From positions 2,733,001-2,797,000 of the forward strand of contig NC_060022.1 in the NCBI RefSeq assembly GCF_021134715.1: a stretch of 64,000 nt of DNA, read 5' to 3'. Below, piece by piece: positions 3,030 through 33,352 of the stretch. Positions within the stretch are counted from its first letter, which is position 1, and every line of letters starts with the position of its first letter. Under the pieces are notes generated by a model. It was not told the DNA's origin. It ran no database searches and saw only the letters and a list, made by a program, of their open reading frames with translations. The DNA comes from Daphnia pulex (taxonomy: Eukaryota; Arthropoda; Branchiopoda; Diplostraca; Daphniidae). The translations under genes and the position numbers were made by a program.

Positions 3030-4772
3030 TTAAAGAAATTGGTTGGTAAAATCTTTTCCCAAATTCAGTTCCTCTCTCATCCGGTTGTACTTGATTTCTA
3101 GGTTACGTAGCAATTCTTCTTTTTCGATTTGAAATTTAATGCCCAGCATCTTTTTTTTTAGTTCCAAGAGGTTGCGATAGTTCTCGTTGTTCTCAGTGCG
3201 AGATTTCAGTTGTGAATAGTAGAGGTTAAGCTCCAGATCAACAGAAGCACGGTTATAGCGCACTACCATCAATTCCGATTTTTCTTTCTCGATTTGTTCT
3301 AAAGTTTGTTGATACGCAGCATTTTTAGTTTCAAGGTCTTCTTCAGCATCTTGCAAATCTTTTTTAGCATTTTCTAGTTGAGAAACAGCGAGATCACATC
3401 CCTTCACAGCAGCTTCAGCCCTTTTTTCCTTCATAGCTAATGTATTGCGCAGATAATTCTTGAAGTCTCCTTCTTTGGCGGAATTCAACTTTTGTTTGGC
3501 TTCGCTGACGCCCTTTTCTGCAGCAACGGCCTGGGAACGAGCCAAACTTAGGGCGATAACGAATTCTTTTGCGATGTTGGATAAGGAATCTCTTTCTTCT
3601 TTGCATGCGTCGACCAAGCATTGAGTTTGACTAGCTTGGCGTTCAAGTGACTTCAGTAGATCTTCTTTACTTGCTAATAATTCTTTTTCAATGAGCAACT
3701 TTGTTTCCAGCTCAGTTATCTTTAACCTTTTTTGTTCAGAGAGGACTTCATTAAATTCCAACGAATACGAAGTTATCAATTTTTCCAACTCCCTTTCCTC
3801 GGCTCTGAGTCCATCTAATAACTCAACATGTGTGCAGTCTAAAATACAGAAATAGAAATTAGAATTTTAAAAATTAACTTTATTGTTCTGTTAATTAATT
3901 ATTATTTTAGCTAACCTGATTTAGGGTTCCAAGGAGAAGGAACAAGTTTAAAATCAATTATTGGTGAAACGGCTGGATCGTCTAACGAGTTAACTACCCT
4001 GCTGGGGTTCCATTTCACCAGTTGTTGTCGTTGCTGAGAAACATCTAAATTTCGAAAAATGTTCATTAAGAATGGATACACAAATAAAGGGACTTTCGCT
4101 GCATTAGTCTGGCAGTCAACTCCTATCTTTTATAAACTATCATAATCATTGGAACATGAAAATTTGTAGGCCTACAAAGTACAAACCTATATCTCGCCTT
4201 TTGATGGGGGAAATTTTAGAAGTGGGTTTCTGATGGACCTGTTTTTCAATGTTGGTGTTGGATGATACACTCAAAATATTCGTTGCTGCAGTTTTATTGG
4301 CATAATGACTAACAGGTAGCTCATTTTTCTTTGAATTTGAGCTAACATTTCCATTTTCCAACTTCCGAATTTTAGCTGGTTGCAAAATAACAAGAGTACA
4401 CATAAACACTTTGGTTGAAAATTTAAAGTATTCACATTACTTATTACCTGGATTCAACCTGTCAATCCTTTCGGTTTCCTTGTTGCAAATGTTTAATTGT
4501 TTGTTCAATGGAGGCTGATCCTGTTTGAAGCCAACAAAGGACTTACTCAAAACTTCTTCAGATGAATTTTGCACGTTTTCAAGGTATATATGGTCAACTT
4601 TATGGTTTGCATATGGTCTAACACCTTTGGAACAATCAGAACAACACTTCTCAGTATTGCTTTTAGGCTGAAAAAAGATTTCACAATCATAACAATTTCG
4701 TATTTTTCTGCTGCTTGTTGATGTTGACGATCCCTCAACATGATTAGATTTAGATTTCGTTTCCTTGGTCAT
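3030..4772 (-). CDS. Unrecognised zinc-ribbon and coiled-coil protein, downstream copy (gene A)
   Basis: I do not recognise the family. Four exons join in phase 1: 4772-4448, 4375-4187, 4044-3916 and 3838-3030, giving 483 aa. The N-terminus (MTKETKSKS) is basic and Ser-rich. It is followed at about residues 28-50 by CYDC and CCSDC, a Cys-x2-Cys pair arrangement typical of a zinc ribbon or knuckle. The middle is low-complexity and polar. The last exon (about 265 residues) is charged, rich in Glu, Lys and Leu, and predicted coiled coil. The neighbouring upstream gene at 10803-12801 has the same plan and a third-last exon of identical 129-bp length, so the two are tandem duplicates. The start was chosen because it aligns with the start of that paralogue. 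Location and function cannot be told from sequence. Confidence 0.75.
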
Positions 4773-5484
4773 CTCTAAAATTGAAGCAAAATAAGAAGGT
4801 TTAGCGCCGTTTCCACCATTAAATTTCCTATGGATTTAAGTCGCTATCTAGCGGCCATATTCGCAATTGTGTCTAAACTAAATATGTCGGAAGTCGGATT
4901 AATGAATTCTTAATCAGAAAACAAATATTTGTAGCGGAAACAGTGTGCAATACTTAATATTTTTTTTTTCATCGACTTCTTAGTTCTTACATTCTTAAGT
5001 TTGAAGAACACTTCGATTTAAAAATCAACTCAAAACGCGTTTCTGTAGAAGAATATTGGATCGTAAATCATATGGTTAATTCGTTTTCACTACCCCATAA
5101 TCGTCTATGTTTACGCGCCAACGTGAAGAGAAATGTTCCGTCATAGCTTGATCTGATTCGGGGACTCGAGTTAAAACTGGCCAATTCCTGTTGAGCATTT
5201 CACCATTTAAAGTTCATGCGCTTGCCAAAGTGCATACATAAGAATACAATTTACTCATCAGCCAAAGCCAAGGGAGAAACGTTTGTAATTTCAATTCAAC
5301 ATTATTCCTGAGAAAACACAGTTAAGAATCAAACAAAATGGTTTCACATAAACATGAACGCGGAAAAGAGTTACCGTGTTTACGAAGTATTTCCAAATAC
5401 GAAAAATGATTTAATTCAAATCAACCGAAGAACGCGCCAACAAAAAAAATAAATTTCAAAAGTTCGACTGGAAAGCAGCAAAAC
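4773..5484. other. Spacer between the two coiled-coil paralogues
   Basis: This is presumed to hold the promoter and 5' UTR of gene A and the 3' UTR of gene B, both transcribed leftward. No further exon is visible. Confidence 0.4.
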
Positions 5485-5624
5485 TCAAGGTGACAGCGAC
5501 AACATCTGACTTCTTTTTTCTCTTTCCGCGTCTAGATCCTTCTTTTTCAGTACGAGTTTAATTTCAAGGGATTGCTGGAATTCCAATCTTTCCTTTTCCA
5601 GCTTTCTTTCGTGCTCTGAGCATT
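5485..5624 (-). pseudogene. Detached 3' end of coiled-coil gene B, cut off by the DIRS insertion
   Basis: Read on the minus strand this encodes a charged coiled-coil tail (ECSEHERKLEKERLEFQ, ending MLSLSP, stop at 5485-5487). It continues in frame from the codon for Ile at the other side of the retroelement near 10848. Placing the two host flanks side by side gives an uninterrupted reading frame whose last exon would be 851 bp, close to the 809 bp of gene A. The fragment has no start of its own and is now separated from its gene by 5.2 kb. Confidence 0.82.
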
Positions 5625-5653
5625 CAATTGTACTGCGAAATGCATTTCGCCTA

Positions 5654-5762
5654 GACCCTAAGGGTGTAGACCTACATTTATTCAGCTTTTTAAAGAACAA
5701 AAAGAGGGGGGTGTGCTGCCCTTTCCTCTTACCTGCACACGCCCTTTGCCATTCAGACTTAT
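5654..5762 (+). repeat. Left inverted terminal repeat of the DIRS element
   Basis: The 109 bp begin GACCCTAAGGGTG and end CATTCAGACTTAT. They match the reverse complement of 10662-10770 with no difference that I could see by eye. The 29 bp outside it (5625-5653) are repeated in inverted form only in the internal complementary region. Confidence 0.93.
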
Positions 5763-5796
5763 TTCAGCTCGCGTACAGTGCAGTCAGAATTTCAGA

Positions 5797-8700
5797 ATGG
5801 CAGGCCCTAGTGATTTTTATGGTTGGCATAGGCACCAGAGAATGGACCCACGGGCCGTAGGTTTTCGTACTGAACAAGAAGCTAGAGATTGGGCAAATCG
5901 TTCTCGTGATTGGAATGGTCAGCCACGCGACCGTTTTGTTCACTTTGATTATCCAGATAGAGAAAGGTCTCCTCTTCGAAACTATCGAGAGTGGGCTCCC
6001 TCCTTTGACGCTCAACCGCCATTGTTTAATATTCCACCCGTGATTCCACCACCGGCTTTTGACGTTCCTCCGCGTGATCAGTTTTTTCACGGAGACCGGT
6101 TTTATCAAAATGATGTGGGGGATCGACCAAGGGGGCGTGCGAAGGAACGGGGGAATGGCGCCGAGTTTCCGTTAGATGATAGGATCGAAGAAGAAGCCTA
6201 CGTTCGTTTTAGCAAGCTAAGAGACTTGGAAGAAAGAGAGAAGCGGGAGAGCAGACAGGAGGAAGACGAAGAAGATGGCGAGTATCTTGAAGTAGAGGAC
6301 GAAGAGGAAGAAGAGTTAGACGAGGGGGGTCCAAAGCTAGTGGACCGTCCATGGCTACCAAAGGAGCGTACTCCCCAAGCCCCTGCCGCCGGATCTAAGT
6401 CGAAAGGGAAGGCTCTAAAACCAACGCGCGCGGCAGCCGCGGCAGCCACGGCAGGCTCATCCAAAGCAGCCAGTGAATCAGGGGAAGTGACGGCGTTCAT
6501 CCCAACAGCGATTTCAGACGAGATTAGGGTTTGGCTAACGACTGGCCTGTCAACCGACGATTCAAAAGCAATCTCAAAGAAATTTGAGCTCGAGTTTGAG
6601 GACCCGACTTTCTCGATTAAACCGCCTAAGCTCGACGGCTTTATGTTGAGGCATGCTAAAGACAAAGATCGATTGAAAGGGGTTAATGCTTCGGAGGAAG
6701 CGCTTATACAGACTCAGCTTAAAATAATGGACGTTGCCCCACCTCTGTTTGATTTATACGCTAAAGTGTGTGCTCTTGGAGAGGGAGAAACGGTGACGCA
6801 AGCCAAGAATACGGTGCGGGCCGTTTTACAACAGTGGGGTAGAGCGTACTACCACATCACCCAAAGAAGAAGGCGAGCGGTTGTGACATTGGTGGAACCG
6901 ACATATGACTTCATATTGTCAAACCCTGACGCTTTCGCACCGGGAAAGGAGGCAACTGAGCTCCTTTTCACGGACAAATTCTTAGAGACGATGCTCAAGG
7001 AGGCGTCTCAAGACGCCACACTGGCAAGCTCATCGGCGGCTCGAGCGAGGGCTAAGGCAGGTGGAAGAAAGGTAGCAGTGAACCCAGGCCCATCTCAACG
7101 GGTGTTGCGCCCAAGGAGAGAAGCAGCGGCCCAATTTCCCGTTGAAGGGAGGCAGAGTGGTGGGGTCGGAAGAGGACGACCGCCGGGTGCAACTGCTTGG
7201 ACTCGAGGAGGTGAAAGGTATGTTTTCGTCCCTCCTTCTGATCCCATTCAAATTTTACGCAATACTGTTGTGTGTGAAAATGTGGGCGGGCGTATTTTAC
7301 ATTTTGCTAAAATGTGGGAGACTGTTACGGACGATCGTTGGGTCCTAGACAGCGTGTCAAACGGGGTTAAGCTAGATTTTGTAGAAACCCCGAATCAAAC
7401 TAAACTTCCGCGTCCGATAACAATGTCGAAAGAGATGGCAAGCGTTTGCGACCAGGAAGTAAAAGATTTACTTGAGAAGAAAGCCATTGTAGAAATTTCG
7501 AATAGCGGGGAGGATGGGTTTGTCTGTTCTCTATTTGTTATTCCAAAAAAATCGGGCGGTTTTCGCCCGATTGTAAATCTTAAACCACTTAATGTATTCA
7601 TCCGGTATGAACACTTTAAGATGGAAAATCTTGATTCCGCACGCTTCATTTTGAGAGAAGGGGACTGGCTAGCAAAGTTGGATTTAAAAGATGCTTATCT
7701 TACGGTCCCTGTGCACCCCTCCCACCAGAAATATTTGCGTTTCACCTGGAAGGGGCGTATTTTTCAATTTACTTGTCTGGCTTTTGGTTTAGCTCCGGCC
7801 CCGCGGTATTTTACGAAAATTCTAAAAGTAGTGGCGGCTTTTCTGAGAAGGCAGGGCATGCGTCTCATCGTGTATCTGGATGATATATTAATAGTTAATA
7901 CATCAAAAGATAGCACCAAAGCCGATGTAAATAAAGTGGTTGAATTATTACAAAATCTGGGTTTCTTGATCAATTGGGAGAAGTCAATTGTAGAACCGTC
8001 GCAAGTAATAGAGTATCTGGGCTTGGTTATTAATTCGGTAAAACTTTCCTTTTCGCTGCCGTCGGACAAGGCTGCAACCGTTAAGGCCAAATGCGATGCG
8101 GCCCTTGCCAGGAGCAGAATTTCATTGCGAGAGATTGCGTCGATAATGGGCAACTTTACTTGGGCCATACCTACGATACCTTTTGCGCAGTCTCATTTCA
8201 GGAGGATGCAGGCATTCTATATTAAGCAAGCTAGAAAAGTGGGATTTAATTTGAAGTCGGAATGCGTGCTATCGGCGGAAACCAGGGACGACTTAGAATG
8301 GTGGTCCAACAATCTAGGCTTAAAAAGGGAAAAGTTGTTCTTTCCTAGCGTGCCAGATCTGGAGATTTTCTCCGACGCTTCTCTAACAGGCTGGGGAGCG
8401 TATTGTAATAATGTGAGGACGAGGGGCTCATGGACTTTGGAAGATACCAAGAGGCACATTAATGAACTAGAGATGTTAGGCGCGTTATACGCGATTCAAT
8501 CATTCGCGGCGGTATCGGAAAGTATAGCGATAAAAATTTATTTAGACAACGTCACGGCAGTGGCTTATATTAATCACGGCGGGGGTACCAGGTCCAAAGC
8601 GTTGACGCAATTATCAACCACTCTGACAGCTTGGTGTGAGAGCCGGAATATTGCAATCGAAGCGGTTCATTTGAGCGGCAAGCTGAATGTAATTGCTGAC

Positions 8701-9303
8701 GAAGAGTCTCGCGCCGGACCGGATGCAAGCGATTGGAAATTAAATCCATCCGTTTTTTCTCGCGTTCAAAAGATCTGGCCATCAAAAGTTGACCTTTTTG
8801 CGTCCCATTGGAACGCGCAGCTCCCCTCTTTCTTTTCGTGGCGGCCGCAACCGCAAGCGTTGAACACAAATGCCTTTTCAGTTAACTGGAAGGGCCTTTC
8901 GGGGTATCTTTTTCCCCCTTTTGCGCTAATTTTTCAATGTTTGGAAAAAATTAGAAGAGAGAAAGCTGACGTAGTTTTCGTTTGCCCCGTATGGACAGGT
9001 CAGGCCTGGTTCCCGGTGCTACTCGAGCTAGCGTGCGACGTAGTATTTCTTCTTCAGCAGGAGCCGGACCTCCTGACATCGGCACTGAACGAGCCGCACC
9101 CGTTATTAGCATCCAGCGCACTTCACTTGGCCGTTTGGAGACTGTCCGGCGACAGTTGCGTGACAGAGGCTTTTCGTCGAACGTGGTCGACCTTCTTGTG
9201 GCCGGAAATCGACCGACCACCCTCGCAACTTACGATTCCGCATGGCGGAACTGGACACATTGGTGTGTGCGAAGGGATACGGATCCCTTGTCGGCGGATT
9301 TAA
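5797..9303 (+). CDS. DIRS polyprotein: Gag-like region, reverse transcriptase, RNase H
   Basis: The first ATG is at 5797 (MAGPSDFYGWH), giving 1168 aa; the frame is open upstream but without an ATG. The first 450 residues are polar and charged, with an acidic Glu/Asp stretch and an Ala-rich stretch, and are Gag-like. The reverse transcriptase follows, with FVIPKKSGGFRPIVNL, the LAKLDLKDAYL aspartate motif, and the catalytic YLDD at 7873-7884 (residue 693). RNase H begins with IFSDASLTGWGAY (catalytic Asp near residue 860) and includes YLDNVTAVAYIN. The C-terminal part has the VDLFASHWNAQ and FSWRPQP pattern that follows RNase H in DIRS elements. Its last 313 nt overlap the recombinase gene in another frame. 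Confidence 0.95.
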   Translation: MAGPSDFYGWHRHQRMDPRAVGFRTEQEARDWANRSRDWNGQPRDRFVHFDYPDRERSPLRNYREWAPSFDAQPPLFNIPPVIPPPAFDVPPRDQFFHGDRFYQNDVGDRPRGRAKERGNGAEFPLDDRIEEEAYVRFSKLRDLEEREKRESRQEEDEEDGEYLEVEDEEEEELDEGGPKLVDRPWLPKERTPQAPAAGSKSKGKALKPTRAAAAAATAGSSKAASESGEVTAFIPTAISDEIRVWLTTGLSTDDSKAISKKFELEFEDPTFSIKPPKLDGFMLRHAKDKDRLKGVNASEEALIQTQLKIMDVAPPLFDLYAKVCALGEGETVTQAKNTVRAVLQQWGRAYYHITQRRRRAVVTLVEPTYDFILSNPDAFAPGKEATELLFTDKFLETMLKEASQDATLASSSAARARAKAGGRKVAVNPGPSQRVLRPRREAAAQFPVEGRQSGGVGRGRPPGATAWTRGGERYVFVPPSDPIQILRNTVVCENVGGRILHFAKMWETVTDDRWVLDSVSNGVKLDFVETPNQTKLPRPITMSKEMASVCDQEVKDLLEKKAIVEISNSGEDGFVCSLFVIPKKSGGFRPIVNLKPLNVFIRYEHFKMENLDSARFILREGDWLAKLDLKDAYLTVPVHPSHQKYLRFTWKGRIFQFTCLAFGLAPAPRYFTKILKVVAAFLRRQGMRLIVYLDDILIVNTSKDSTKADVNKVVELLQNLGFLINWEKSIVEPSQVIEYLGLVINSVKLSFSLPSDKAATVKAKCDAALARSRISLREIASIMGNFTWAIPTIPFAQSHFRRMQAFYIKQARKVGFNLKSECVLSAETRDDLEWWSNNLGLKREKLFFPSVPDLEIFSDASLTGWGAYCNNVRTRGSWTLEDTKRHINELEMLGALYAIQSFAAVSESIAIKIYLDNVTAVAYINHGGGTRSKALTQLSTTLTAWCESRNIAIEAVHLSGKLNVIADEESRAGPDASDWKLNPSVFSRVQKIWPSKVDLFASHWNAQLPSFFSWRPQPQALNTNAFSVNWKGLSGYLFPPFALIFQCLEKIRREKADVVFVCPVWTGQAWFPVLLELACDVVFLLQQEPDLLTSALNEPHPLLASSALHLAVWRLSGDSCVTEAFRRTWSTFLWPEIDRPPSQLTIPHGGTGHIGVCEGIRIPCRRI

Positions 9304-10091
9304 CCGAGGTTTTGCAGTTCCTCACCGACTTGCTGGCCTCGGGCAAGTCGTATAGCGCAATCAACATTCACCGGTCTATGTTGTCCAGGACCCTGGGGTC
9401 CATCGAAGGCGTTCAGATAGGCGCGCATCCGCTTGTCGTCCGATTAATGAAAGGCTGCTATCACAAGAATCCCCCCAAGCCCAAGTACAACGACATGTGG
9501 GACCCGAGTCAAGTTGTAGAATTTATTAATTCGTTGGGCGAAAACCGACACCTTACCCTGAGCGTCTTAGCTAGTAAATTGGTCACCATGATAGCGTTAG
9601 CTACCTTAATGCGAGCGTCGGAGATAGCGGCAATTGGTTACCGATCCGTCGTCTTCTCAGAAAGAGGGGTAGTATTCTCATTAGATAGGTTACGGAAAGC
9701 ACAGCGGAACGGTCCGCTGCAGTCCTTTTCAATATTAAATGATCCGGATCCGATTTTATGTCCAGTCTTGGCGCTTAAAGAATTTGTGGAACGTACGAAT
9801 CAGTTTAGACGCGAGACAGACGAAGGAAAACTATTTGTTGCACTCATCGCGCCCCATAGGCCGGTCTCAGCCAGTACAGTGAGTCGCTGGATTAAATCGT
9901 TCTTGCAAAAGGCCGGCATAAACACTCGGTGTTTTGGGGCGCATTCCACAAGAGGAGCGGCCGCTTCGAAAGCGGTCAGTGACGGCGTACCGGTGGAGGC
10001 AATCTTGCGAGCCGGAAGTTGGTCAAAAGAAACGACGTTCAATCGATTTTACAATCGAGCGTCGACACAAACGATGTTTGTTCAAAATTAA
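8991..10091 (+). CDS. DIRS tyrosine recombinase
   Basis: This is 366 aa from ATG 8991, in the -1 frame relative to the polyprotein and overlapping its end. It integrates the circular DNA copy of the element. An N-terminal SAM-like DNA-binding part (TLATYDSAWRNWTHWC) precedes the catalytic domain. The catalytic residues are visible: Arg208 in LMRASEIAA, His318 and Arg321 in AHSTRGAAA, and nucleophile Tyr354 in FNRFYNR. The frame is intact. No DDE integrase or aspartic protease is present, as expected for DIRS elements. How translation reaches this frame is not evident from the sequence. Confidence 0.94.
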   Translation: MDRSGLVPGATRASVRRSISSSAGAGPPDIGTERAAPVISIQRTSLGRLETVRRQLRDRGFSSNVVDLLVAGNRPTTLATYDSAWRNWTHWCVRRDTDPLSADLTEVLQFLTDLLASGKSYSAINIHRSMLSRTLGSIEGVQIGAHPLVVRLMKGCYHKNPPKPKYNDMWDPSQVVEFINSLGENRHLTLSVLASKLVTMIALATLMRASEIAAIGYRSVVFSERGVVFSLDRLRKAQRNGPLQSFSILNDPDPILCPVLALKEFVERTNQFRRETDEGKLFVALIAPHRPVSASTVSRWIKSFLQKAGINTRCFGAHSTRGAAASKAVSDGVPVEAILRAGSWSKETTFNRFYNRASTQTMFVQN

Positions 10092-10115
10092 AAATTCATC
10101 ATTGGGCTTTAAAAT

Positions 10116-10242
10116 CACCCTTAGGGTCTAGGCGAAATGCATTTCGCAGTACAATTGGTAAATTACCCGAGGGATCGTTCTACGATCCTGAAGGGTAATT
10201 GAAATTGTATAAGAAATAAATGTAGACGACGACCCTAAGGGT
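10116..10242. repeat. Internal complementary region of the DIRS element, with the stored circle junction
   Basis: The first part (10116-10157) is the reverse complement of the left end (from 5625 inward). The second part (about 10153-10242) is the reverse complement of the right end (10757-10848). They meet at TACAATTGGTAA, which is the left and right element ends joined through a shared AATTG/CAATT. This region is thought to template completion of the ends during reverse transcription and circle formation. Confidence 0.92.
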
Positions 10243-10661
10243 CTGTCTCCCACCCATACCCACCCTGTGTCATCATTTATTTAATTATGATTCATTCAAT
10301 TTTGGAAAAAACGCGTAGAAATCAAACCTTTCGTGGCCGGAAAGCTGGAGGTTATTCTAGAAGCAAGAATAACTAGACTGGCGAGAAAGTAAGAAGGCCC
10401 CATTACGTGTTCAAGTTACGGCAGTTGGCAGAGCTGTCCAGAAGAAGAAGCGCACTATTTTTTGCTGCAACCATTATGTTCATGTTTCTGTGTTTCATGA
10501 TATGTTACCTTGGGATAGAGTTTTTTTACCCTGAAGTCCTCAGGTTTTTTCTCGTATCCCCCTCAAACTGTTATTTGGAAGTTATGTGTGAAATTCTCTC
10601 TGATTATGTTTGATAACATGTAATTGTGTTTGGTTAAAACCCTGTACACGGATCTGTAGCT
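10243..10661. other. Non-coding right part of the DIRS element
   Basis: This is about 420 bp between the internal complementary region and the right terminal repeat. No conserved coding sequence is visible. It is presumably the 3' untranslated part of the element transcript. Confidence 0.5.
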
Positions 10662-10770
10662 ATAAGTCTGAATGGCAAAGGGCGTGTGCAGGTAAGAGGA
10701 AAGGGCAGCACACCCCCCTCTTTTTGTTCTTTAAAAAGCTGAATAAATGTAGGTCTACACCCTTAGGGTC
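10662..10770 (-). repeat. Right inverted terminal repeat of the DIRS element
   Basis: This is the reverse complement of 5654-5762. Outside it the element continues for 78 bp (10771-10848), a longer and different extension from that on the left. Host sequence of gene B resumes immediately after CAATT at 10844-10848. Confidence 0.93.
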
Positions 10771-10802
10771 GTCGTCTACATTTATTTCTTATACAATTTC
10801 AA

Positions 10803-12801
10803 TTACCCTTCAGGATCGTAGAACGATCCCTCGGGTAATTTACCAATTTTGCATTGTATTTCAAGCAACTGCTCCTTGAGTTCGAAGTATTTACAAAAGT
10901 TTTCCAAGTTATTGCCTTGCAGAAGAGACTCCAGTTGTGAATGAGCACGTTTGACTTCTTCATCGGTAGAATTGCAGGTATCGTGCAATGCCATCAGTTC
11001 TGATTTCAACTTTTCGCCTTGCAATAACATTTCGTGATGAACAGCCTCTTTCGATTTAAGGTCCCCTTCTGTTTTCTTCAGATCTTTTTCCGCCTCTTCA
11101 AGTTGGGAAACGGTGTACTTGGCTTTAGCTTCTGCGTCCTTTGCTCTTTCTTCTTTTTTCGCCAAGATGGTGATTAAGTAATTCTTTACAACCTCATCTT
11201 TTGATTCTTCTAATTTCCGTTTGATTTCGTTGACTCCCATTTCAGTTGAATCGCATGACGAACGAGCCAGTTCTACAGCAGCACCGGCTTCTTTTATGTG
11301 GTTGCGCAGCGAATCTCTTTCTTCTGCAAATGCTTCTACTACGCATTGAGACTGGACGACTTTTAATTCGAAGGATTTTACAACACCTTCTTTGTCGAAT
11401 AGCATTTCTTTCTCGGCGGAATGCCTGGATTCTAGTTCAGTTATCCTTTTTTGTACAGAAGAGATTTCATCATAATCCAACTGATATGGAATTAACATCG
11501 TTTTTAGTTCCACTTCTTTGACTCTCAGATCATCCAACTCCAAAGTTGAGAAGTCTAATGTAAAGAAATATAGAAATAGGTAAAGATATGATAAGACTTC
11601 TATTCACTAACCTAACATATGGTTTGAAACATGTTGAGGAACATTTCGGATTGTTAAATGTTCGGGATTATCCAACAATTCCGTACTAGGCTTCTCGCCG
11701 GAACCGCTTGACTTCGACGGTGGCATTGAACGGCATAAATCTAAAAACAAATATAATTTAAACATTAACTTTGCAGATCCAGTCCGTAGCAGCTTTTTTA
11801 AGGCATTCTAAATCATTTCAACAAATTATATTCATATTTCTTTTCAAACATTTTTCACTAACCAGTTTTGCTTAACTGAGTTAATTGATGGAATTCAGAA
11901 GGGCAAGAATCACCAGCCTCATTTTTAAAGCTAGCTATCTGGGATGAAATGGCATTTTCCATGCAAATGACTAATTTATAAAAAACCCAGATGAAAATAC
12001 ATATTTCAAACATAAAACCTTCTTTTTCAGGTCCAGTTTAAGTGTTTACATTTACCTTGATTCTCATCTTCATCATTATTGGATTCATCACAAGACGATG
12101 TAGATAAATCAATAACAGCTAATGGAATACTGTCAGTTGATTTCCTAACAGCTAATGGAATACTGTCAGTTGATTTCCTCAGAATACCAGTACCTGTTGC
12201 TGAGGAACTTTTCCCAATAGCACAGGTTGTTGGTGTTTCAGATCCTAAAGTGGTGCTGCTAGATGAGATATTTTTTATGACTTGAACAGCATCAACTTCT
12301 TTAGTTCTGATTCCTGTGAGTGTTCGCTTTGCAGTTTCCATCGGTAAATTGATATGTGGAACTGAAATGAAAAAGACAGTAATTAAATACAAATTGATTC
12401 ATTTTTTTGGTATGCATGTTATGGTGTGATTATTTTAAATTATGAGCATACTCACTTGCTGAGCGTAAATTCGTCCCTGCGAGGTCAATTAACAAACTGC
12501 CATTGGGAACAGAAAGAATGCCAGGTTGGTTTTTAGGTACCAATTTTATTGGTTCCAATTTCCAAACAGATGGCTTTCTTAGACTTAGACTGGACTGAGA
12601 TTTTTTGTTTCCTAGATTACTTTGATCTACAGCAACAGCGTTTATGGGTTTATCCGCACTACATTTAGTACAAAACTTGTGTTCTTTTGAAATTGGTTGA
12701 TAAACTTGTTCGCAATCATAACAACGAGAAACGGTTTTAGAGGTTCTAGCACGTTTTGCTTGATTAGAACCATGGCTTTCGTCTTTAGAATTTTTAGACA
12801 T
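10803..12801 (-). CDS. Zinc-ribbon and coiled-coil protein, upstream copy (gene B), truncated by the DIRS insertion
   Basis: This is the paralogue of the gene at 3030-4772. Exons in phase 1 are 12801-12456, 12361-12056, 11970-11863, 11740-11612 and 11554 onward. The N-terminus (MSKNSKDESHG) carries CYDC and CTKC, matching the paralogue's Cys pairs. The last exon is coiled coil. Beyond the Ile codon at the insertion site the frame runs into the retroelement and adds 11 foreign residues (starting GKLPEGS) before a stop at 10803. The present product would be about 546 aa and lacks the native tail, which survives at 5485-5624. Exon 2 contains a 33-bp in-frame tandem duplication (RKSTDSIPLAV twice). 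Exon 3 (108 bp) has no counterpart in gene A. Confidence 0.78.
12114..12179 (-). repeat. 33-bp in-frame tandem duplication in gene B exon 2
   Basis: The units 12114-12146 and 12147-12179 are identical and add one extra copy of the 11-residue unit RKSTDSIPLAV without shifting the frame. Confidence 0.9.
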
Positions 12802-20766: not shown

Positions 20767-22282
20767 TTAATTCATGAGAAACAAAAGAGACTTTTGGGGC
20801 GATCAGCTAGACTAAAAACCACGTCCTTCAAACTTTGCTGTTATTCCACACTTCATTGATGAAATTTCAGTTGTTGTGAAATTCAGGTTGAAATCCATGT
20901 GAAAGTTATTTTTCAACTTTATCGGTGAGTTTTTGTGACTTTCAGTTGACTCTTCACCGTGTACATGTATTGATTTGTTGTTTGTGGTCTCTGTTCTTTG
21001 ACGTTTGTCAACAGTCGCCATCTCGAACTAGATAGTCCACCATTTAAGAAACCACCCACCATCCAGATTCCCTTTAACATTTCATCCCAAACTAACAAAA
21101 CAGATTTGCATTGATACAATAAATTGGCAACGAAATCAAACCAATGAATTGTCCACATTTTTGTCATCACAGTAAAAACACACTTGTTATTGTTATGATG
21201 AAATTAGGGTTTTAAAAATATTGTTTTAAGTATTGAAATGTTCTGAACTGTTCTGATCTGACAGCAAAAGACCGTGAGCCATTTTTATGTTGCAATCATT
21301 CAACCCAACCAGTAACACAAGTTTTGAGTTTTGTTTCTTGTTACCATTCAAGGCAAGGTAAAATCTTACGTGGTTTATATAATGGCGTCATCATTTCAGC
21401 AGCGTCACGTAAACCCACGCTGCTCACTACCTTCATTTGTATTCCATCCGTTAAATTATAAAATGACGTATCCCCGTTACTTCCATTTTTCATCTTCTCC
21501 CAAGCTTTGTCTTTTACTTTTTGTCAAGTTTTTCCCAGGTCTAAAATTATTTAAATATTTGGAGATTATACATCGGTCTGGTCTGCCTGTCAAGAAATCG
21601 AAAAATAATCTGTAGTTCGTGCAAGCAAAAGCGCACCATCAGTTTGTGCTTTTAGTTAGCCTTGATCTGGGAGTATAGCAGGTAAGAAAATGGTGACCAT
21701 GGTTCCCGTTTTTTTTAAAACCTTTCACAGGTGACTCTATCGGTACAAATTTTGGTTTGCCTTTATATATTTTACTATTTTTCACATTTTGAAATCCAAT
21801 ATATCGATAGTCGATAAAGGAATGCATTGGGTGATATTATTTAATCAGTTTCTCCAGTTTCTGTTCAGGTGTATTCTCTAATGTGACAGCAAACATACTT
21901 TTTATAGAAAACATATAAAGGCAAACGAACATTCTCTTTTATAGACTAAAAATAAGACGATTCTATTATGATACCCATATTTCCTCAATTTTTAATCGGA
22001 ATACTGTGATGTCGATTTCATGGTTCGATTCCTTTCTTGAAACTTGAAAGGTCTCCAATAAAAATAACGTCCCAGATCTCCGCCCACTCAACGTGTTCTA
22101 TCTTTAGTTTTTGTTTTCCCCGAGAACCTACGTAATTACCGGACGTGCGTAATTACTTGTGAATGACTCGGTGACATTTTGAGAAATTAATCAAACAATT
22201 GCACCTTTGTTCCTTCAAACAAACAAAAATGAGCCAAAACTTTTATTTTACCCCTCTGTTTTCTTTCATGTGTGTCTTTACA
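20767..22282. other. Likely 5' UTR intron and promoter-proximal region of period
   Basis: No coding exon was found. The stretch ends at a good acceptor (TTTACAG, last base 22282), 45 bp before the period ATG. An upstream non-coding exon should therefore exist, probably near the E-boxes. Several GTGAGT/GTAAA-like donors occur, and I cannot choose among them. Confidence 0.45.
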
Positions 22283-22327
22283 GAGTCTTTCTACTGAAAG
22301 AGCACCGACAGCTGTCGCCTGTCAAAC

Positions 22328-25300
22328 ATGTCAGAGAATGATGGCAGCAGCAAATCATCTTCAGGACCGTCGAGCGGTTCTTCGCGAATGGATTCAGCCG
22401 GCTCGGCAGCGGGCTCATCGGCTGGCAATTCGCACTCGATTGGAGCCCCTTCTTCCCACGCCGAATCTGATTCTTTCCAACATTCGCACATGTCGTTAAA
22501 AGGGACTTCAAATTGCAACATATCGGCTACTTCCGATTCGGCCTACGGAGGCTCCATATCAAACAGCCAGTCGCAGAGAAGTGGTAGTGGAAGTGGCAGC
22601 CGTAGCAGCAAGTCCCAGATCAGCTCCAATTCGTCCAACAAGTAACTAGTTACAAACATTTCTAAGGTATACATCAAATAATCACAATCTTGTTTTGTTA
22701 TTTTGTAGTGCCGGAGCCCAGCAACCACCAAAGTTACGTAAGGAGAAGGATCCTAAGAAACGCAAATCAAAACAGGCGTCCATACCTCCAGTGCAATCTC
22801 CTGGGCTTACGGTCGACCGACCTGCTTCAGCTGGATCCAATAAAGCCGCCGCCTCGGCAGCCGCTGTTATCTCAGCCACGTCTTTGGCTATGGCCAATGT
22901 TTTTACGGTCGAGGGGGGAGACTTAGTAACGACGAGTGGACCTAGTCCATCCGATTCTACAGGATTCTCAAGTGGCACTGGGGCGTCTATTGGCGGCAGT
23001 ACCGGAATTGCATCGGCGACTAATCGTAATACACGAATAAAGATAGCCAGATCGACTATTGGAATTCGTGGCTTTACTGAATCAAGAGCCGTTCAAGCCG
23101 CAGCTTTGTCCAGGGCGTTGGATTGTCTCAAAGGCACTGGATTGGGTCCAAGTAAAGGTGAGTTCTTTGTTCTTTTTGGAAATATAAAAAAATGCAAATT
23201 GTGCTAATTTCTTTATTTGAAAACAGAATCAATCAGTTCATCAAAGTGTGGAAAAGAGGATGCCACCACATCGTCGTGGAGATCCATTATTGATCCACTG
23301 GAATCGAGTTTGAAAAAAACTTTTGCTCATTTGGAGGAAGTGCCAACTGTCAAATCAAAGGTAAGAATAAGATATTTAAGTTGGCATTGATAAAAATATT
23401 CAAATTTGATTTTTTCTTTTGTTTTTCTAGGAAGCTTTTATCGCGGCTATTAGTTTACAGGATGGGATCGTAGTGTACGTCACACCTTCCCTAACCGAAA
23501 AACTTGGTTATCCCGTTGAGATGTGGTGCGGTCGTTCCCTGCTGGATTTTATCCATCCTAAAGATCGACTCGCTTTCACTAACCAAATCACTTCAAAATT
23601 GTTGGCCAGTTTGGACAAGGACGATTCTTCATCGGGTTATTCGTTTAGTTCAGGTAATAAAAGAGATAACAGTCCATTAAGTAACATAATATGTAATCTT
23701 GGGGATTTTCTATTCAACAGACGAGGGATTATTCCCACGCGGTAGCATGATTGGCAGCTCATCCTCACCACCAAACATGCTCTGCTGTCGACTTCGAATG
23801 TACCGCGGTTTACGCACATCTGGCTTCGGTATCGTGGACAAAAAGACTTCCTACTTGCCTTTTAAGATCATTTTGAACTTGGAGAAGATCACACTACCTC
23901 GTGAATCTCCTGAAAGCCAAAACGAAAAGGAAACGGTTGCAGACGGCTCAGTACCCAAGAATCCCGAAGAAGACGATTCCGATTCGGCCGAGTACTACTT
24001 GTTGGCTTACGCAGTACCAATTTCAACAGCTTACAAAAGTATGTTTTTAATGATGCCCCGAAAATCTTGAAAAGTTTTTAACGATCTATTGATTTTTCTT
24101 TATCGCCAAGATCCAGATGAAAAGAACTCGACGGGAGAATTCGGCTTGCGTCATTCCGCCAACTGTTTATTCAGCGAAGTGGACATGAGCTCCGTGCCCT
24201 ATTTGGGACATCTTCCGCAAGATCTTTTAGGCACTTCAGCACTGGATTTTTACCACCCAAACGATCTGCCCGAGTTGAAAAAGATTTACGATTCCGTGAT
24301 TGGTCGCCAAGGGAAATCGCTCCGCTCTAAACCATACAACTTTCGAGCATTTAATGGGTGTTATGTCCTCCTACAAACGGATTGGACTTGTTTCGTTAAT
24401 CCATGGACCAAAAAGCTCGAGTTTGTAGCCGGACACCATCGAGTACTTAAAGGACCGTCTAATCCTGACGTGTTTGCTAACCCTCCGGAAGGAACAGTTC
24501 CTTTCGTCGATTTGGATCCCACAGCAGCCGAAAACACTAAAAAGCTGCACGCTGAAATATGCACCATTCTAACTGGTAATTTGATTTATGAAATACAGAA
24601 AAAATAGTAATTGATCTTTTTTGTGATGCTTTTTTGAATCAGGTTCAGCCAAACCTCCCCATCAGGCACGTACTTCACACAACAGGGTGGATACGGCGTT
24701 ACTGGAGACGGCAACCCGCCGCCGGAAGAACTTAGCAACGCTGATGGGTTCCTTGATAGACGAAGTGGCCAAAGCAAGGGGGAGTAATTCCTGCGGCAAT
24801 TCGTGTTCAAGCAGTACCTACGCACGTTGCAAACCGCAGTTACACAGCCCAGCTGAAGAGGGCTCATTACTAGGCGACGCTTCGGTAGTGATGGGTGATA
24901 TATCAACTCATGGAGGTTCAGCATTTGATTCCAACAGCGCAGATACTCCACTCTCTTATTCTCTGCTAAACTACAATCAAAATTTAGAGCGGTACTTTCA
25001 AAGCCAGCCTAAAATGATGCCTTCAGATGGTATGAAGAAGCTTTTTTAATAATCCCGTGATTGAGACCTTGTTGTTAAATTTTTCTTTCTTCTTGGTTTT
25101 AGGATCAGGGGAAAGCATTGGTTCGGGGTCAGGTGATTCCAAGCCAGGTAAAAATCAAACTCCAAATATGAGCTCAGAGGAGGAAGGTGGTTGTCTTGGT
25201 ACCGACGACACTTTCTCTGGAACGTTGCCTAGCACTGACAGCCAAAAGCTGAGCAGTTCGAATAGCAACAGCATTAGTAACAGTCGCAGCACCGACAGTC

Positions 25301-27044
25301 AAAATGGCATGCCATATGAAGCTGGATTCAAGGGATTGCCATTAACTAAAGAAGCAATGGCCAGGCACAATGAAGAAATGGAAAAAGAGTTTATGCAACA
25401 GCACAGGTATAAAACGTAATGACAAAAAAGAAAATAATTGCCTATTTCTAAGCTTTTATTAACATTCTTGGTGCATCGCTTGTTCAGAGATCTACGAAAT
25501 CGAAGCACACCAGGCCACAGATGTGGACCACCTCACTGTCGGAAAGATCTACAAGGCGTCAAACGCGGTCAGGCCGCTTCTTGGGAAGAAGGAGGTGCTG
25601 GTGGAAGGCACAAGCATCCACACATGGATGCATTTTGCGCGACGCCTCATTGCTATCAGAATCCGTTGACAGGAGCTGCCACCGGCCCATTCAGTCAGTT
25701 TCAATTTGTTCCGTTTCCAGTTACATTGATGCTTATTTCCTCTTTTTTTCTGTTAATTCTTTCAGATGACTGGGCTTCACTAACGAGCCCTTCATTGATT
25801 CCTTCGAATCTACTTCCTCCGTTTTCCGTGAGTGCGACGATGCCCAATCAACAGTCACCTCTCTTCAGGTTGGTCCTACAAGCCCCTCCCAGTATGTGTT
25901 GCACAAGTATTGATTGCCAGGTTTTTATTTTTATGTCTTGTAGCATTCCTATGACAAATCGAGGGGAAGTTACCAATTCGTTGCCAGCATTTTACCTGGC
26001 TACTTCCGCTGGAGCAACAAGTTCTGGCATCCGGTCGAATAATGGCATGTCCATGGGACCGTCACCGTACATGGTTCAAAATGAACATCATCATCAATCT
26101 CTCGGTCCTGCTTTCTCTCTCCAGCCGTACGCCGCGTATCCCCATGGCGTCATTTATCAACCCGTTATGGTCCCTCCCATGTTGTTTCAACCTGGTTTGG
26201 GCATGATGATGTCCCCGTCACCCTCCATGACGCAGCCTCAATCTTCTCGTCACAGACCTTTCCTTCATCAAAATGTAATTTCAATCAGCAATATAACCAT
26301 AGCAACTGGCCTAGGAAGAAACTAATTAACTTTTTTGTCACCCATTTACAGTATCAAAGCGAGAATCGTCATCGCCAACCCCAACCTTACCGTTTGTCAA
26401 GCGGACATGTGGATAATCCTGTTGCTGGCCCAAGCTATCGGGACGATGGGGCTGCCAACGCCAATTCAATTGAGCAGCAGAACTCTTCATACAGACAACA
26501 GTTTAGAGAAGCGGTGAGACACACTTGTATAAAGATAGCAAAAAGACTGTTGACTGACTTTTCATTATTTCTTTTCGATCGATAGTCTGCAAGTCGACAA
26601 CAAGGAACGGAACAGTATGGTTCGAATCAAGCCCAAAATCAAGCTCAGGCTCCGTCGAACCAACAACGACCAACTTGCAAGAGGATTCCTCCTTGGATGG
26701 AAGCCGTTTCAGTTTCAAACGAACTCGTTTATCAGTACCAGATTCCTGGACGTAACTCGACGGACGTCCTAGAGGCGGATCGTGAGAGGTTACGGTTACT
26801 CCAGCAGCCCGTCATGCTCAACCACCAGCTTATGCAACTTTACACAGAAATGGAAGCAGAACAGCGAAACGGCATCGACTTGGCACTCGACGATAGTGAA
26901 AACAGTATCTCGTCGAGAGATACGGATGAGACGAATCACAGGAGAAGAGAGTTACGTCGACGAAGTAACGATTTTAGACGGACGATGCTTTATGAAGAAA
27001 ATGCACCTTTCCCTCACCCCGAATCATCATCCACAGATGGATGA
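22328..27044 (+). CDS. per: Period circadian clock protein
   Basis: PER is the clock repressor that acts with CRY or TIM to inhibit CLOCK/CYCLE in the nucleus. Thirteen exons agree in phase and give 1284 aa: 22328-22641, 22709-23157, 23227-23360, 23431-23653, 23721-24038, 24111-24575, 24643-25029, 25103-25406, 25488-25693, 25766-25868, 25944-26274, 26352-26513 and 26586-27044. The N-terminus has the PER signature SDSAYGGSISNSQSQRSG, followed by a basic NLS-like stretch (KEKDPKKRKSK). PAS-A begins near AAISLQDGIVVYVTPSL; PAS-B includes VPYLGHLPQDLLGTSALDFYHP. Downstream are RHNEEMEKEFMQQHR, GVKRGQAASWE, and the C-terminal PPWMEAVSVSNELVYQYQ block typical of insect-type PER. No Thr-Gly repeat is present; a short Gly-Ser tract takes that position. 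The 25694-25765 intron uses a weak donor (GTCAGT). Confidence 0.96.
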
Positions 27045-27750: not shown

Positions 27751-28946
27751 ATGACAGATGACTCGGCAGAACTAGAAAGACAGAAATTGTTGTACCGATT
27801 GCAGCATATCATTCCGCGCAGCTTATCCACGTCGAGTTTTTATAATAACAAACTTCAAATTCCTTCGTCTAATAAGACGTCTGCTGATGGCCCTCAAGAT
27901 GTTGAATTTCAAATGACTTGGGGGAAAGTGGCAGGTAGCAACAGGTTTAAAGTTTGTATTGTATGCCTAGCTAGAACTTGTATCAAGTTTTCAAAGTAAA
28001 TCTGTCAGATACCAATATTTAAAAAACTAATTGTATTTTTCAATGCAGCCAGAATATGGGGCCCACCTGATGGACGTCCAGTGTTCGCTATCCACGGATG
28101 GTTGGATAACGCTGGTACGTTTGATACCTTGATACCTTTATTGCCCAAAGACTTGCGTATAGTTGCTGTCGAAATGCCCGGTCACGGTCTAAGTGATCCC
28201 TTCCCTCCCGATGCCGCCTACAATTTCATGGTACAAAATCAAATTTGAAAAGTAATCATTTTTCATATGATTTTCAAAATATTAAAATATTCTTACAGGA
28301 CTGTCTAGTCGCTATCGAGCGGTTTGCCAAGTACTTTAAATGGGAAAAATTTTCGTTTATTTGCCATAGTCTAGGAGCTACTATGTCTATGATGTATGCC
28401 GGAATTTACCCTGATAAAGTTGACAAACTCGTCCAACTCGACATCGTGCGAGTGGAAACTACCAAACCGGAATCGATTGATTACAGATTACGAAAAACGG
28501 TTGGGAAATTGCTCAAGTACGAGGCTGAAATCATTGCTGGGCCGGAGAAACCTTTCAGTTACGAAGAAGCCATCGAGAAATGTATCGGCGGAACATTTGG
28601 ATCGCTCGATAAAAAAGCCTGTGATATTCTATTCAAACGTGGATTGAAAAAAGTTGAAGGAGGATACGTTTTCCGTCGCGATCGACGTCTGCTAGCCGCC
28701 CCACTATCATTTGCTCCGAAAGAGGATCAACTCATTCTTGCACGCAAAGTCACGGCCGATGTCCTAATTATCAAATGTAGTGATGGACCTGATTTTGAAA
28801 CTGCGGAAAATTCATTGGAACACGTTGAAGCACTCAAGACCAATGCGAAACGTGTTCAATATGTCATAGTGGAAGGCAAGCATCACACTCATCTGACAAA
28901 TCCTGAGCTTGTCGCTCCAATCATCACCGAGTTTTTCAACACCTAA
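27751..28946 (+). CDS. SERHL/kraken-type alpha/beta hydrolase 1
   Basis: A 337-aa serine hydrolase-like protein from exons 27751-27934, 28049-28230 and 28299-28946. Family marks are the oxyanion-hole segment AIHGWLDNAGTFD, GHGLSDPFPPD, and the C-terminal histidine segment EGKHHTHL. The nucleophile elbow reads C-H-S-L-G, with Cys replacing the first Gly of the usual G-x-S-x-G found in the two sister genes at 29735 and 34734. The second intron (after YNFM, phase 0) is absent from both sisters. Substrate is unknown; the family is linked to peroxisomal or detoxifying hydrolases. There is no signal peptide. Confidence 0.88.
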
Positions 28947-29734
28947 AGAGTGAATTCAACAACGGTCAGTTTTCCCTGTTACGACCATTTTTACTTATCT
29001 TTCTTTAATGCACATATTTCACGTTAACATAAATTGTTTTTGTACTAACTTGTAGTACGTTTTCTGAACAGTAATGTGTTAATATGTCTGTTCGTTTCAG
29101 AAACTATAATAATGGGTTTTGTATGTATTATTGGATGACACAAAATAAAATAAAAAATACTTGAGCATGGCGTTTATTATTTTGTGAAAATGATTTATTA
29201 ATATTTCATAATAGCATAGTCATATCATATTATTAGAACAGTTACTGCAGCAACTTACAACGAGATAAATTTACATGGCTGTATAGATCTTGATTTATAT
29301 CTTCTATCGACTATCGGACCAGACAGTGAGTAAGTGACACTGACAGGACAGACGCAGTAAGGTAACAAATATCTAGATATTCAAATGGCAACGCACCGTA
29401 CGCACGGCTCTCGGCCGATAGCACTAGCAGACGCTTTTTGTGATTGTACTTGAGCTTTGAGTTTTCCTGTGTTTGTTTTTGTTTTTGAGATTATGATAAT
29501 AATCAGCATATGAAGTTTTCATATTCATTGTTTGAATAAAGATTGCCCCGCTGGTTTTCTCGCCCTGTTTTCTGTCTTTCTTAAAAGGCAATTAAAGTAT
29601 AGGATTTATAAGTTCAGTAGGTAAGTTTTAGAAATGAGACCATTTCTTTACCTTAACTGAGATCAACATAAACATCAACATAAAATAATATCTCATTATC
29701 AATTTTTACCCAGAGTTAAAAATTGAACACCCAC
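28947..29734. other. Spacer between hydrolases 1 and 2
   Basis: This holds the 3' UTR of hydrolase 1 (AATAAA at 29144-29149) and a likely 5' UTR exon of hydrolase 2. That exon's donor (GTAAGTTT) lies near 29622 and the acceptor near 29712. Confidence 0.5.
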
Positions 29735-30808
29735 ATGGCCAATGATGCAGAAAAATTGCTGTTCCGAATGCAGCATATCATTCCACAGCAACTTTCTTCA
29801 GTTCTGAATGTACATGACAAGGAAACAGTATCATCAAATGTTAATCCAATGGAAATTGAATTCCAAATGACATGGGGGAAAGTAGCTGGTACGTAAAAAC
29901 ACATTTGTTGTAATAGTATACAGATATAAGCATTACATTTTTGTATTTGTGAAATAGCTAAAGTATGGGGACCACCTGATGGACGGCCAGTATTTGCCTT
30001 ACATGGATGGTTGGATAATGCTGCTACCTTTGATGCCTTGATACCTCTTCTGCCACAAAATTTAAGAATAGTTGCTGTGGACACAGCTGGACATGGACTC
30101 AGTGATCATTATCCTCCTGATATTGCCTACAACTTTTTTGATTGCCTTGTTGCAATTGAGAGATTAGCTGGTCTGCTCAAATGGAAAAAGTTCTCATTCC
30201 TTGGCCACTCAATGGGCGCGGCCATGGGGATGCTGTACGCGGGAGTTTTCCCGGAAAAAGTAGATACCCTTGTCTGTCTTGATTTAGCTAGAGCAGAAGT
30301 CACCAGACCAAAAACGGTTGGCTACAGGCTAAGAAAAACCACAGAAAAACTGCTGAAATACGAAGCCGCTATCGTCGCAGGTCCAGAGAAACCATTCAGC
30401 TATGATGCAGCAATCGAAAGAAGTATAACTGGCTCGTTTGGATCACTGGACAAAAATGCGTGTCATCTTCTTTTCAAGCGTGGCCTTAAAAGAGTTGACG
30501 GTGGTCACGTTTTCCGAAGAGATAGAAGATTGATGGCTGCGCCTTTAACCTTAACTCCTAAAGAAGATCAACTCGAAATGGCCAAAGAAGTTACTGCTAA
30601 TGTTTTAGTTATCAAGTTTGCTCAGGGACCAGATTTTGAGAGCCCTGAGAATTTCATGGAGCACGTCAAGACGCTTCAAACCAAAGCCAAGAATGTTCGG
30701 TATGTAGAAGTGGAAGGTGCGCATCACGTTCATCTTACTCATCCAGATCGTATTGCTGCCATTATTTCCGAATTCTTCAATGCTCCAAGTAGTGGCGGCA
30801 TTCCTTGA
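29735..30808 (+). CDS. SERHL/kraken-type alpha/beta hydrolase 2
   Basis: A 334-aa protein from exons 29735-29888 and 29958-30808. It has the canonical nucleophile elbow G-H-S-M-G, the HGWLDNAATFD oxyanion segment, GHGLSDHYPPD, an acidic residue in GPDFESPENF, and the catalytic His in EGAHHVHL. It shares the first phase-1 intron (after VAG) with both sister genes but lacks either second intron, so the rest of the gene is one exon. AATAAA at 30959-30964 is the likely polyadenylation signal. Confidence 0.9.
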
Positions 30809-31502
30809 CCAAGTTCGGTGCAACTAGATTTAGCATCCCCGCCCTCCCAAACGGTAAAAATAACTGTAGTAATATCGCAAACTTACGTGAATCAATAGGG
30901 AAATTGTAATCTCAATTTCCCTTGAGGACCAAATACTGCTAAACTTCTTCCCGAGTGAAATAAAAAGCATAAAAATTGCTTTCACCAATTCTCATTTCTT
31001 ATCATACTATTTGTGCTTTTCGATGGTGGTATAGATTAAAAAAAAATCAAATTAAGTGTATTTAGAAATTTAAACGAGCAATTCATTATGCCAATAAATA
31101 TATTTGTTTAAAGATAATTTTTAAGATTTGCTCATGCAGGTTTTTAAGATGCGCATAAGGGAAAGGATAGATCCTTTTTTCGATCCTTATTCAGCCTTTA
31201 CTTTACAGCTAGTTGTCAACATTCTGCAATAGATGGCAAGATGATAATATTGTGTTTTTGCTTTAGACAACAGACTATACCTGTTTAAACTGTAAAAATC
31301 TGTCACTGTCATTTTGAAAGAGATCGTTACTCGTTATCGGCCGCCTGAGGATTTTGTCTCATTATTTGAGTGATAGCAATTTACACCTTTCCCTTTTTCT
31401 AAACAGATTTGATTACAAACTTGCTGCTTGCTGTAAGGTTTTGTGGAAGGATTCAGGAAAGCTGGACAAAAGCTTTAAGGGGAAATACGTACAACGTTTA
31501 AG
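30809..31502. other. Spacer between hydrolase 2 and the adenosine deaminase-like gene
   Basis: Hydrolase 2 3' UTR followed by the promoter and 5' UTR of the next gene. No additional exon is visible. Confidence 0.45.
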
Positions 31503-33352
31503 ATGCCTGACACAAAAATGTACGATTCGTCTCAAATTATGAATTCCATGCCGAAAGCCGTAAGTCATATACTAACCAAACAATATATTTAAATATTTAA
31601 AAAATGATCTAGAACAAATGTGCACGCGTAGTATACAATGTAGCTTTAACATGACTGTACTAATAGTAATTTCTCATAATCGTTCGTGGTAGTACCTTTA
31701 AGAAAATTGATACCGTATTTTCCGTTTTCCGATGTTGATATAAGAAAGGAGTTATGAATTTCAATTTTGTTTTTTTAAAGGAGAGTTTAACAAAATATTT
31801 TGAATCATCATCTTGTAGGAATTACATGCTCATTTGAATGGTTCGCTGAGCCTATTAACCATACGAAAGTTAATAGATCTAAAATCGTCTCATAATTGTG
31901 AAGACGTGCACAACCTTGAATCAATCATTACAAAATTATGTGACGAAAAACATAATAAAACACTCGATGAGTAATAATAATATTCTCCGTTGAAATACCG
32001 TCCCAAATTGAAATAGTAGTTTTTTTTCTATAGGTGCTTCGAGGTCTTTAAAATAATCCACCAGTTAACTGACAGTGAAAAAAGCATTTACATAGCAACA
32101 GTCGATGTGGTAAAAGAATTTGCCGAAGAAAATGTGCGCTACTTGGAGCTCAGAACCACTCCACGTGCCATTGATGGATCTCTTGACACATATGTAGATG
32201 CCGTAATTAGAGCCATTGAGTAAGTGTATTGGGGTGTGATTTTTGGAATTACTTTCTTTTTATTCATAATTTTTACTAATTTATTCTAGTGATTGTCGTA
32301 AAGAAGAAGTTCCCATCCTTGTTAAATTATTGCTATCAATCGATCGAAGTCGAGGAGTTGAAATAGCCCAAAAAATTGTGGATTTAACCATTTCCCTCGG
32401 ACACGCTCGCAAAGACGTTGTTATCGGACTGGATGTTTCTGGAAATATGGCACAGTCGAATGTTACTGATTATTTCCCGTTGCTTCATAAAATTAAGGAG
32501 GCCGGACTAAAGCTCACTGGTAAAACAAATATTACCAAATAAGTTTTCTTATGGAATAACGTTTTAAAAATAACATAAATTTGATATCTTTCTGATATTT
32601 ACTTAAAGTACATACTGCCGAAATTAGGAATGACGCTGAAACCGAAGCAATTCTGCGATTAAAACCTGATCGAATAGGTCACGGAACTTTTATTTCTCCA
32701 TCGCTGATTGGAAGCCCACATTTACTTGGACTTTTGAAGGAGAACAATATACCAGTGGGTACGCAATCTTTGATTTCTTTTTATGATTATTTGCTAGAAG
32801 CAAGGCATTTGAAGAGAAGACTAAAATTAAAATATCTTCGTTTCAATAATGTTTTGCGCTTAATCGGTTTTCAGAGCTCTGCTTGACTTCCAATATAGTG
32901 TGCAAAACTGTGCCTAGGTACCAAGATCATCATCTAAAGATTTTTCTTGACCACGGCATTCCATTCTGCATTTGTGTAAGTTATTACTTGAATTGGAAAA
33001 CCATTTGCATAGCGAATTCGATTATTTATTTTATGTTATGCTGAATACGGATGTGTGTTAAAGACCGACGACAAGGGCGTGTTCTCAACCAGTCTGAGCC
33101 AAGAATATCTCATCGCTTTTCGGACTTTCAACTTCACCCTTTCATCTGTAATAAGATATTCTTTTAAAATTCGTTTGCAATTAAGTATCATCTAAAAAAA
33201 TTGTTTTACAGATGTGGAGCTTTTCTCGGAAATCGCTGGATTACACGTTTGCTACCGAAAACGAAAAAGAACATTTGAAGAAAATATGGAAGGAATGGGA
33301 GCATGAAAATGTAGATTTGAATTTGGTGAATAGCCAGGAGACAAATGAATGA
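31503..33352 (+). CDS. Adal: Adenosine deaminase-like protein (ADAL/MAPDA, N6-methyl-AMP deaminase type)
   Basis: A zinc hydrolase that removes the amino group from N6-modified AMP or adenosine in the cytosol. Eight exons agree in phase and give 366 aa: 31503-31559, 31819-31970, 32034-32219, 32290-32519, 32609-32758, 32875-32975, 33064-33147 and 33212-33352. Zinc and active-site motifs are present: HAHLNG (metal-binding HxH), VHTAE, RIGHG, and TDDKGVF (the metal-binding Asp pair). The length matches the ADAL subfamily and there is no signal peptide, which excludes the secreted ADGF/CECR1 group. Its place between two members of the hydrolase cluster looks accidental. Confidence 0.92.

Follow-up and report, generated by a model that had tools for sequence, protein, structure and literature searches.

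In this study, a 64,000-nucleotide stretch of Daphnia pulex DNA (contig NC_060022.1, positions 2,733,001 to 2,797,000; this whole stretch is referred to as the window) was found to carry a complete DIRS1-like retrotransposon inside the last exon of a protein-coding gene, here termed gene B. We are nearly certain that this arrangement reflects a recent insertion at a host ATT triplet, which splits the exon and probably leaves gene B with a truncated product; as such, it is a very recent example of an already known kind of event. The parts of the element are as follows, in window coordinates.

5627..10848, plus strand: complete DIRS1-like retrotransposon, about 5222 bp; the span counts the shared ATT at both ends
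10662..10770, minus strand: conserved part of the right inverted terminal repeat (ITR); a divergent part and the right extension then run to 10848
10116..10242, plus strand: internal complementary region (ICR), which repeats the joined right and left ends in exact reverse complement, with ACCAATTGTAC as the circle junction
5797..9303, plus strand: gag-pol open reading frame (ORF), with the reverse transcriptase at about 7540-8028
8991..10091, plus strand: tyrosine recombinase ORF, from its first ATG; overlaps the pol ORF by about 310 nt

The conserved part of the left ITR (5654-5762, plus strand) pairs with 10662-10770 over 109 nt at 100% complementarity, and both internal complementary matches of the element were recovered alongside the ITRs. 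If the right end is placed before the left end and their common CAATT is written a single time, the ICR is the reverse complement of the product at 127/127 positions; since this copy lies inside the element, it fixes the element ends independently of the host sequence. The bases CA at 5625-5626 belong to the host and match the junction by chance, and the start at 5625 proposed in the initial annotation, made from the sequence alone, includes them. The gag-pol product contains a reverse transcriptase (Pfam RVT_1, E 7e-22) and the second ORF a recombinase (Pfam Phage_integrase, E 6.7e-12), two stretches of which align with Cre (E 0.0016). We take these stretches to cover the first catalytic Arg, the His-x-x-Arg and the Trp regions. 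No DDE integrase was among the Pfam matches of the scanned element proteins, and the presence of a tyrosine recombinase together with the absence of such an integrase is a mark of DIRS1-like elements. Matches in an NCBIfam scan of these proteins all fell far below the cut-off, and relatives of the reverse transcriptase were not found in viral contigs, a collection ill-suited to crustaceans. The repeat layout of the element is of the DIRS1 type, so that a place among DIRS1-like elements is more probable than one with Ngaro, PAT or Viper. The earlier statement that the element is complete with both genes open held.

The insertion had originally been placed on a shared CAATT. Junctions were read in 25 elements, comprising ten copies of the window family and 15 other elements of the genome (133.19 Mb in 13 contigs). 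All 25 have ATT at the left end; at the right end, the A and the last T are present in 25/25 and the middle T in 23/25. Within the window family, whose ten sites were compared, left ends vary at the first position of CAATT, one copy departs at the second, and all keep ATT. The base preceding the left ATT matches the junction in 13/25 elements (9/10 copies of the window family versus 4/15 others) and the base before that in just 6/25; a 5-bp CAATT overlap was therefore rejected, and the true overlap is 3 bp, ATT, with the preceding CA not conserved. The ICRs of these elements overlap on a 3-bp circular junction, ATT, that matches the ends, and no target-site duplication beyond this triplet was seen at the ten family sites or in the 25 elements, in agreement both with the annotated lack of duplication past the short shared sequence and with a DIRS1-like element. 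As read from the ends, the overlap is the 3-bp triplet of the DIRS model published in PMC3266345.

The sample behind these counts was selected by hand. At least 152 recombinase matches were found genome-wide; of the 152 listed, ten are the window family and some are fragments of one element, and 26 other DIRS loci were picked from the longer ones. Both ends were obtained for 17, and nine gave no complete pair (C10:7.199, C12:2.421, C1:0.778, C10:9.091, C8:1.755, C10:9.746, C2:8.741, C8:0.894 and C5:1.659). Two loci with both ends were dropped from the 25: C10:4.950, whose internal copy differs from its ends, both of which read AATT, and C1:1.348, whose right end departs from the internal copy before the triplet. 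Where only the right end was available, C1:0.778 reads ATT and C12:2.421 departs early, before the triplet. End pairs were found by their match to the internal copy, a procedure that favours agreement. A number of the recombinase matches keep intact frames at 45-60% identity, which indicates several distinct DIRS families, and the junctions of these families have an AATT core in most cases where they were read.

The element lies antisense to gene B. By analogy with the known DIRS model, its tyrosine recombinase probably linked a circularized DNA copy, with the junction CCAATTGTAC, to the ATT of the host, with no further duplication. The host gene and its tandem paralogue, gene A, are arranged as follows.

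12456..12801, minus strand: gene B exon 1, with two CxxC motifs
12056..12361, minus strand: gene B exon 2, holding a perfect in-frame 33-bp tandem duplication (12113-12178; 11 residues repeated)
11863..11970, minus strand: gene B exon 3
11612..11740, minus strand: gene B exon 4, splice sites and phase by eye
10803..11554, minus strand: present coding part of the gene B last exon; host codons, then 13 element residues and TAA at 10805-10803
5485..5625, minus strand: stranded native 3' end of the gene B last exon; 46 codons and TGA at 5487-5485
3030..4772, minus strand: gene A, intact tandem paralogue, four exons (4772-4448, 4375-4187, 4122-3916 and 3838-3030)

When the flanks are joined with the shared bases counted once, an open minus-strand frame results (...EIQCKI/ECSEHERK...), the join being the one read in the initial annotation; the frame ends at TGA. 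The empty site restored from the flanks would read ...CAATGCAAAATTGAATGCTC... on the strand of the gene, and gene B before the insertion would have encoded 579 residues. Its last exon would have measured 851 bp, compared with 809 bp for that of gene A, the same lengths as first reported. Gene A is the only other genomic match to the gene B last exon (46% identity, E 7e-42), and these two genes are the only members of the family found in the searched genome. The 46-residue tail had no second genomic match at E up to 10; compared with the last 60 residues of gene A, it scores 41 in the expected frame, and none of the other five scores above 30. Because the two flanks come from one gene, an assembly misjoin is argued against. 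In the scanned coding parts of genes A and B, no Pfam family reached the cut-off, and relatives of gene B were not found in bacterial and archaeal contigs, collections ill-suited to crustaceans. The coiled-coil character ascribed to these genes is a judgement by eye.

Several observations weigh against this reconstruction. The tail-paralogue score of 41 is modest and was equalled by 482/20,000 shuffles; a shuffled left flank stays open over 45 codons in 756/20,000 cases; among 3,000 random window positions, 172 fall in frames of 284 codons or more, compared with 299 at the true join; and when the left flanks of the other copies were combined with the window right flank, one of nine joins produced a frame that exceeded the true one in length. 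In addition, the models of genes A and B were drawn by eye without transcripts, and the evidence comes from one assembly of one isolate of one species. As regards the element itself, its Dam methyltransferase match is weak (E 0.0063, 16.6 bits against a Pfam cut-off of 28.1), and no RNase H family was found in Pfam at E 0.1, acidic RNase H-like motifs being recognised by eye only. In view of the shuffle and random-join controls, we no longer treat openness of the frame, which is weak by itself, as the main evidence; the ICR-defined boundary, the register of the paralogue and the exon length, taken jointly, make what we consider a convincing case. The same controls lend something to the idea that the exon at 5485-5625 is part of a different gene, gene B itself having naturally ended near the insertion, since a 45-codon open frame is not rare in shuffles and the tail resembles the paralogue only modestly; however, the 13 present terminal residues are not native, as they lie in an element end common to all ten copies (last bases aside), and gene A matches the tail best in the expected frame and place. 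We give this idea almost no credence.

The allele as it now stands encodes 546 residues, of which the last 13 (GKLPEGSFYDPEG), rather than the 11 counted previously, come from the element; the final 46 residues of gene B would thus have been replaced by 13 read from the right end of the element. On the host-gene strand, an AATAAA lies inside the element at 10786-10781 and starts 17 nt past the new stop. This is probably the new polyadenylation signal, and the message would be cut and polyadenylated there, just inside the element. Transcripts had been predicted to end near 10,803; however, the new stop codon ends at that position, and the AATAAA places the expected transcript end at about 10,750-10,770. 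Because the signal lies just past the stop, a shortened transcript is the likeliest product, so that a truncated protein of 546 residues is probably made instead of one of 579, and gene B function may possibly be lost.

It could be envisaged instead that the element is removed as an intron, so that gene B survives. Just inside the element, the host strand offers TTG/GTAAAT at the right end and TTTCGCAG/TAC at the left end, a splice that would join 10,844 to 5,632, and GTAAAT is also the donor of the second intron of gene B. Such a splice, however, keeps 8 extra nucleotides and shifts the frame, and the wrong tail soon stops; the AATAAA at 10786 comes early in what would be a 5.2-kb intron, whereas genes A and B have seven native introns, all of which obey the GT-AG rule and measure only 57-122 bp. 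Splicing of the element was set aside because the frameshift remains, and we regard rescue by this route as very unlikely.

The insertion was described as recent from the outset, and the other copies of the family bear this out. At least ten copies are present in the genome, each with different flanks; over 5,214 bp, eight of the ten, including the window copy, are identical, and both ORFs are open in all ten. One remaining copy has one substitution, and the other has six substitutions and three gap columns. The nine closest copies show one substitution in 46,926 sites. If a star-like tree is assumed and the D. pulex rates cited in PMC12926508 are applied (2.30e-9 to 4.53e-9 per site and generation), the copies would be about 4,700-9,300 generations old, and at the 95% upper limit about 26,000-52,000, although gene conversion could make them seem younger than they are.

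Insertion into genes is not confined to the window copy. The copy with one substitution (L010, G000:C5:4780700-4788900) interrupts an intron of a gene for an ATR-like checkpoint kinase and runs in the direction of that gene; the host intron is about 74 bp, with splice sites placed by eye, and the gene matches FAT (E 6.2e-42) and M-HEAT_ATR (E 2e-35). A further copy, identical inside (L016, G000:C3:5913100-5921300), perhaps interrupts a coding exon close to a splice acceptor. Joining its flanks yields a frame of 194 codons, the end of which appears chitin-binding-like by eye, and no Pfam family was found in the right-hand part. Two, perhaps three, of the ten copies therefore lie inside genes, the other seven having been examined solely for frames across the empty site.

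These data can be set beside previous studies of DIRS elements, with the likeness to D. pulex elements judged by description only. Table 3 of PMC3266345 gives DpuDIRS3 of D. pulex as 5195 bp, with ATT/ATT ends, an AAT circular junction, a right extension and ICR values of 38-89; the present element is similar, with about 5222 bp, ATT/ATT ends and ICR values of about 40-90. Unlike DpuDIRS3, for which that table gives no long ORF overlap, its pol and recombinase ORFs overlap, as listed above. Likewise, Dpul_D5 and Dpul_D16 (Rho et al. 2010, PMC2996953) are low-copy D. pulex DIRS elements with intact frames that occupy different sites in different isolates; the transposon display account in that study describes no gene-splitting allele. 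Fusion of DIRS-derived residues to a host protein is reported in PMC4495291 for the LAP2alpha domain of TMPO and ZNF451, where the domain derives from the first DIRS ORF and is retained as an alternative isoform. In gene B, unlike in these cases, a 13-residue terminal-repeat tail replaces the native end and bears no sign of function.

The initial annotation suggested that the allele may be polymorphic and that excision could in principle be precise. Insertion-site polymorphism of one D. pulex DIRS family among isolates is reported in PMC2996953, as are putative somatic gains in two families, and on this basis the gene B insertion may well be polymorphic too. Precise excision by the recombinase is formally possible. 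If it occurred, the element would move in and out and the allele would flip between broken and intact; we consider this highly improbable. Tyrosine recombinase reactions are reversible in principle. Two DIRS losses, with no gains, occurred in the D. magna lines of PMC8594854, by no established mechanism, and Table 3 of PMC2996953 lists, for a single DIRS family of D. pulex, a low loss rate in asexual lines (0.00031, versus 0.0028 in sexual lines). However, a second family in that study has no losses, the abstract of the paper reports that losses never occurred in asexuals, and losses are ascribed there to segregation of heterozygous insertions: in the D. pulex mutation-accumulation lines those of one family were at 4/7 loci thought to be heterozygous, near the expectation for segregation. 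Furthermore, the accepted cycle, as reviewed in PMC5633606, copies via RNA and circular cDNA. Most published Daphnia DIRS losses fit segregation.

The exceptional junctions bear on how a DIRS element and its target are joined. Two copies of the window family, L012 and L013, have ATT on the left and AAT on the right; as neither internal copy has changed, the target is the most likely source of the odd base. The right end of C10:9.091, whose left end was not found, reads AGT. Among the 28 DIRS elements of Table 3 in PMC3266345, six middle-base mismatches and one last-base mismatch are all on the right and one first-base mismatch is on the left, with two rows that have 2-bp junctions left unscored. 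Middle-base mismatches are therefore on the right in 8/8 cases with both ends known and in 9/9 when C10:9.091 is included (two-sided sign test for the nine, 0.004). A single crossover after the first base of the triplet would account for L012, L013, C10:9.091 and the mismatches in Table 3. We tentatively raise the possibility, which we hold to be rather doubtful, that DIRS integration has a fixed polarity with the crossover between the first and second triplet bases, such that the circle would give the last two triplet bases at the left end and the target would give them at the right end. Against this, C1:1.348 and C12:2.421 might not conform, as their right ends diverge ahead of the triplet; moreover, each published row stands for one annotated element, and the pattern could be skewed by mismatch repair. 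If two strands were exchanged symmetrically and resolved without bias, both arrangements would be expected; fixed polarity, if true, would point to single-strand exchange or strand-biased resolution. The strand-biased circularizing integrative elements described in PMC10214605, which are bacterial DNA elements, offer a possible analogy, and a 2017 review (PMC5633606) notes that experimental proof of the replication mechanism proposed for DIRS-1 is incomplete.

Elsewhere in the window, the plus strand at 949-1990 carries a gene for a crustacean neurohormone of the CHH/ion-transport-peptide type, the first part of which matches Pfam Crust_neurohorm (E 2.4e-18); two candidate alternative 3' exons were recognised by eye near 1370-1490 and 1890-2000. 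The region at about 22000-27000 presumably holds a Period-like clock gene with a PAS region, and we take the region at about 28000-36000 to hold three or more alpha/beta-hydrolase-like genes in a tandem array, both on recognition by eye. At 61702-63435, an 18-bp unit (TTTCTATCTTCCTTCAAA) is repeated 96.3 times with 100% matches; there is strong strand skew around this repeat, and several frames are open over long distances.

In conclusion, the split last exon of gene B represents a gene-breaking allele that is datable and testable, from a DIRS family that seems to be active, or to have been active very recently, in what is probably a clonal model animal. Together, the ten near-identical copies and the 25 readable junctions provide a small natural experiment on how the recombinase of a DIRS element crosses its DNA with the target.

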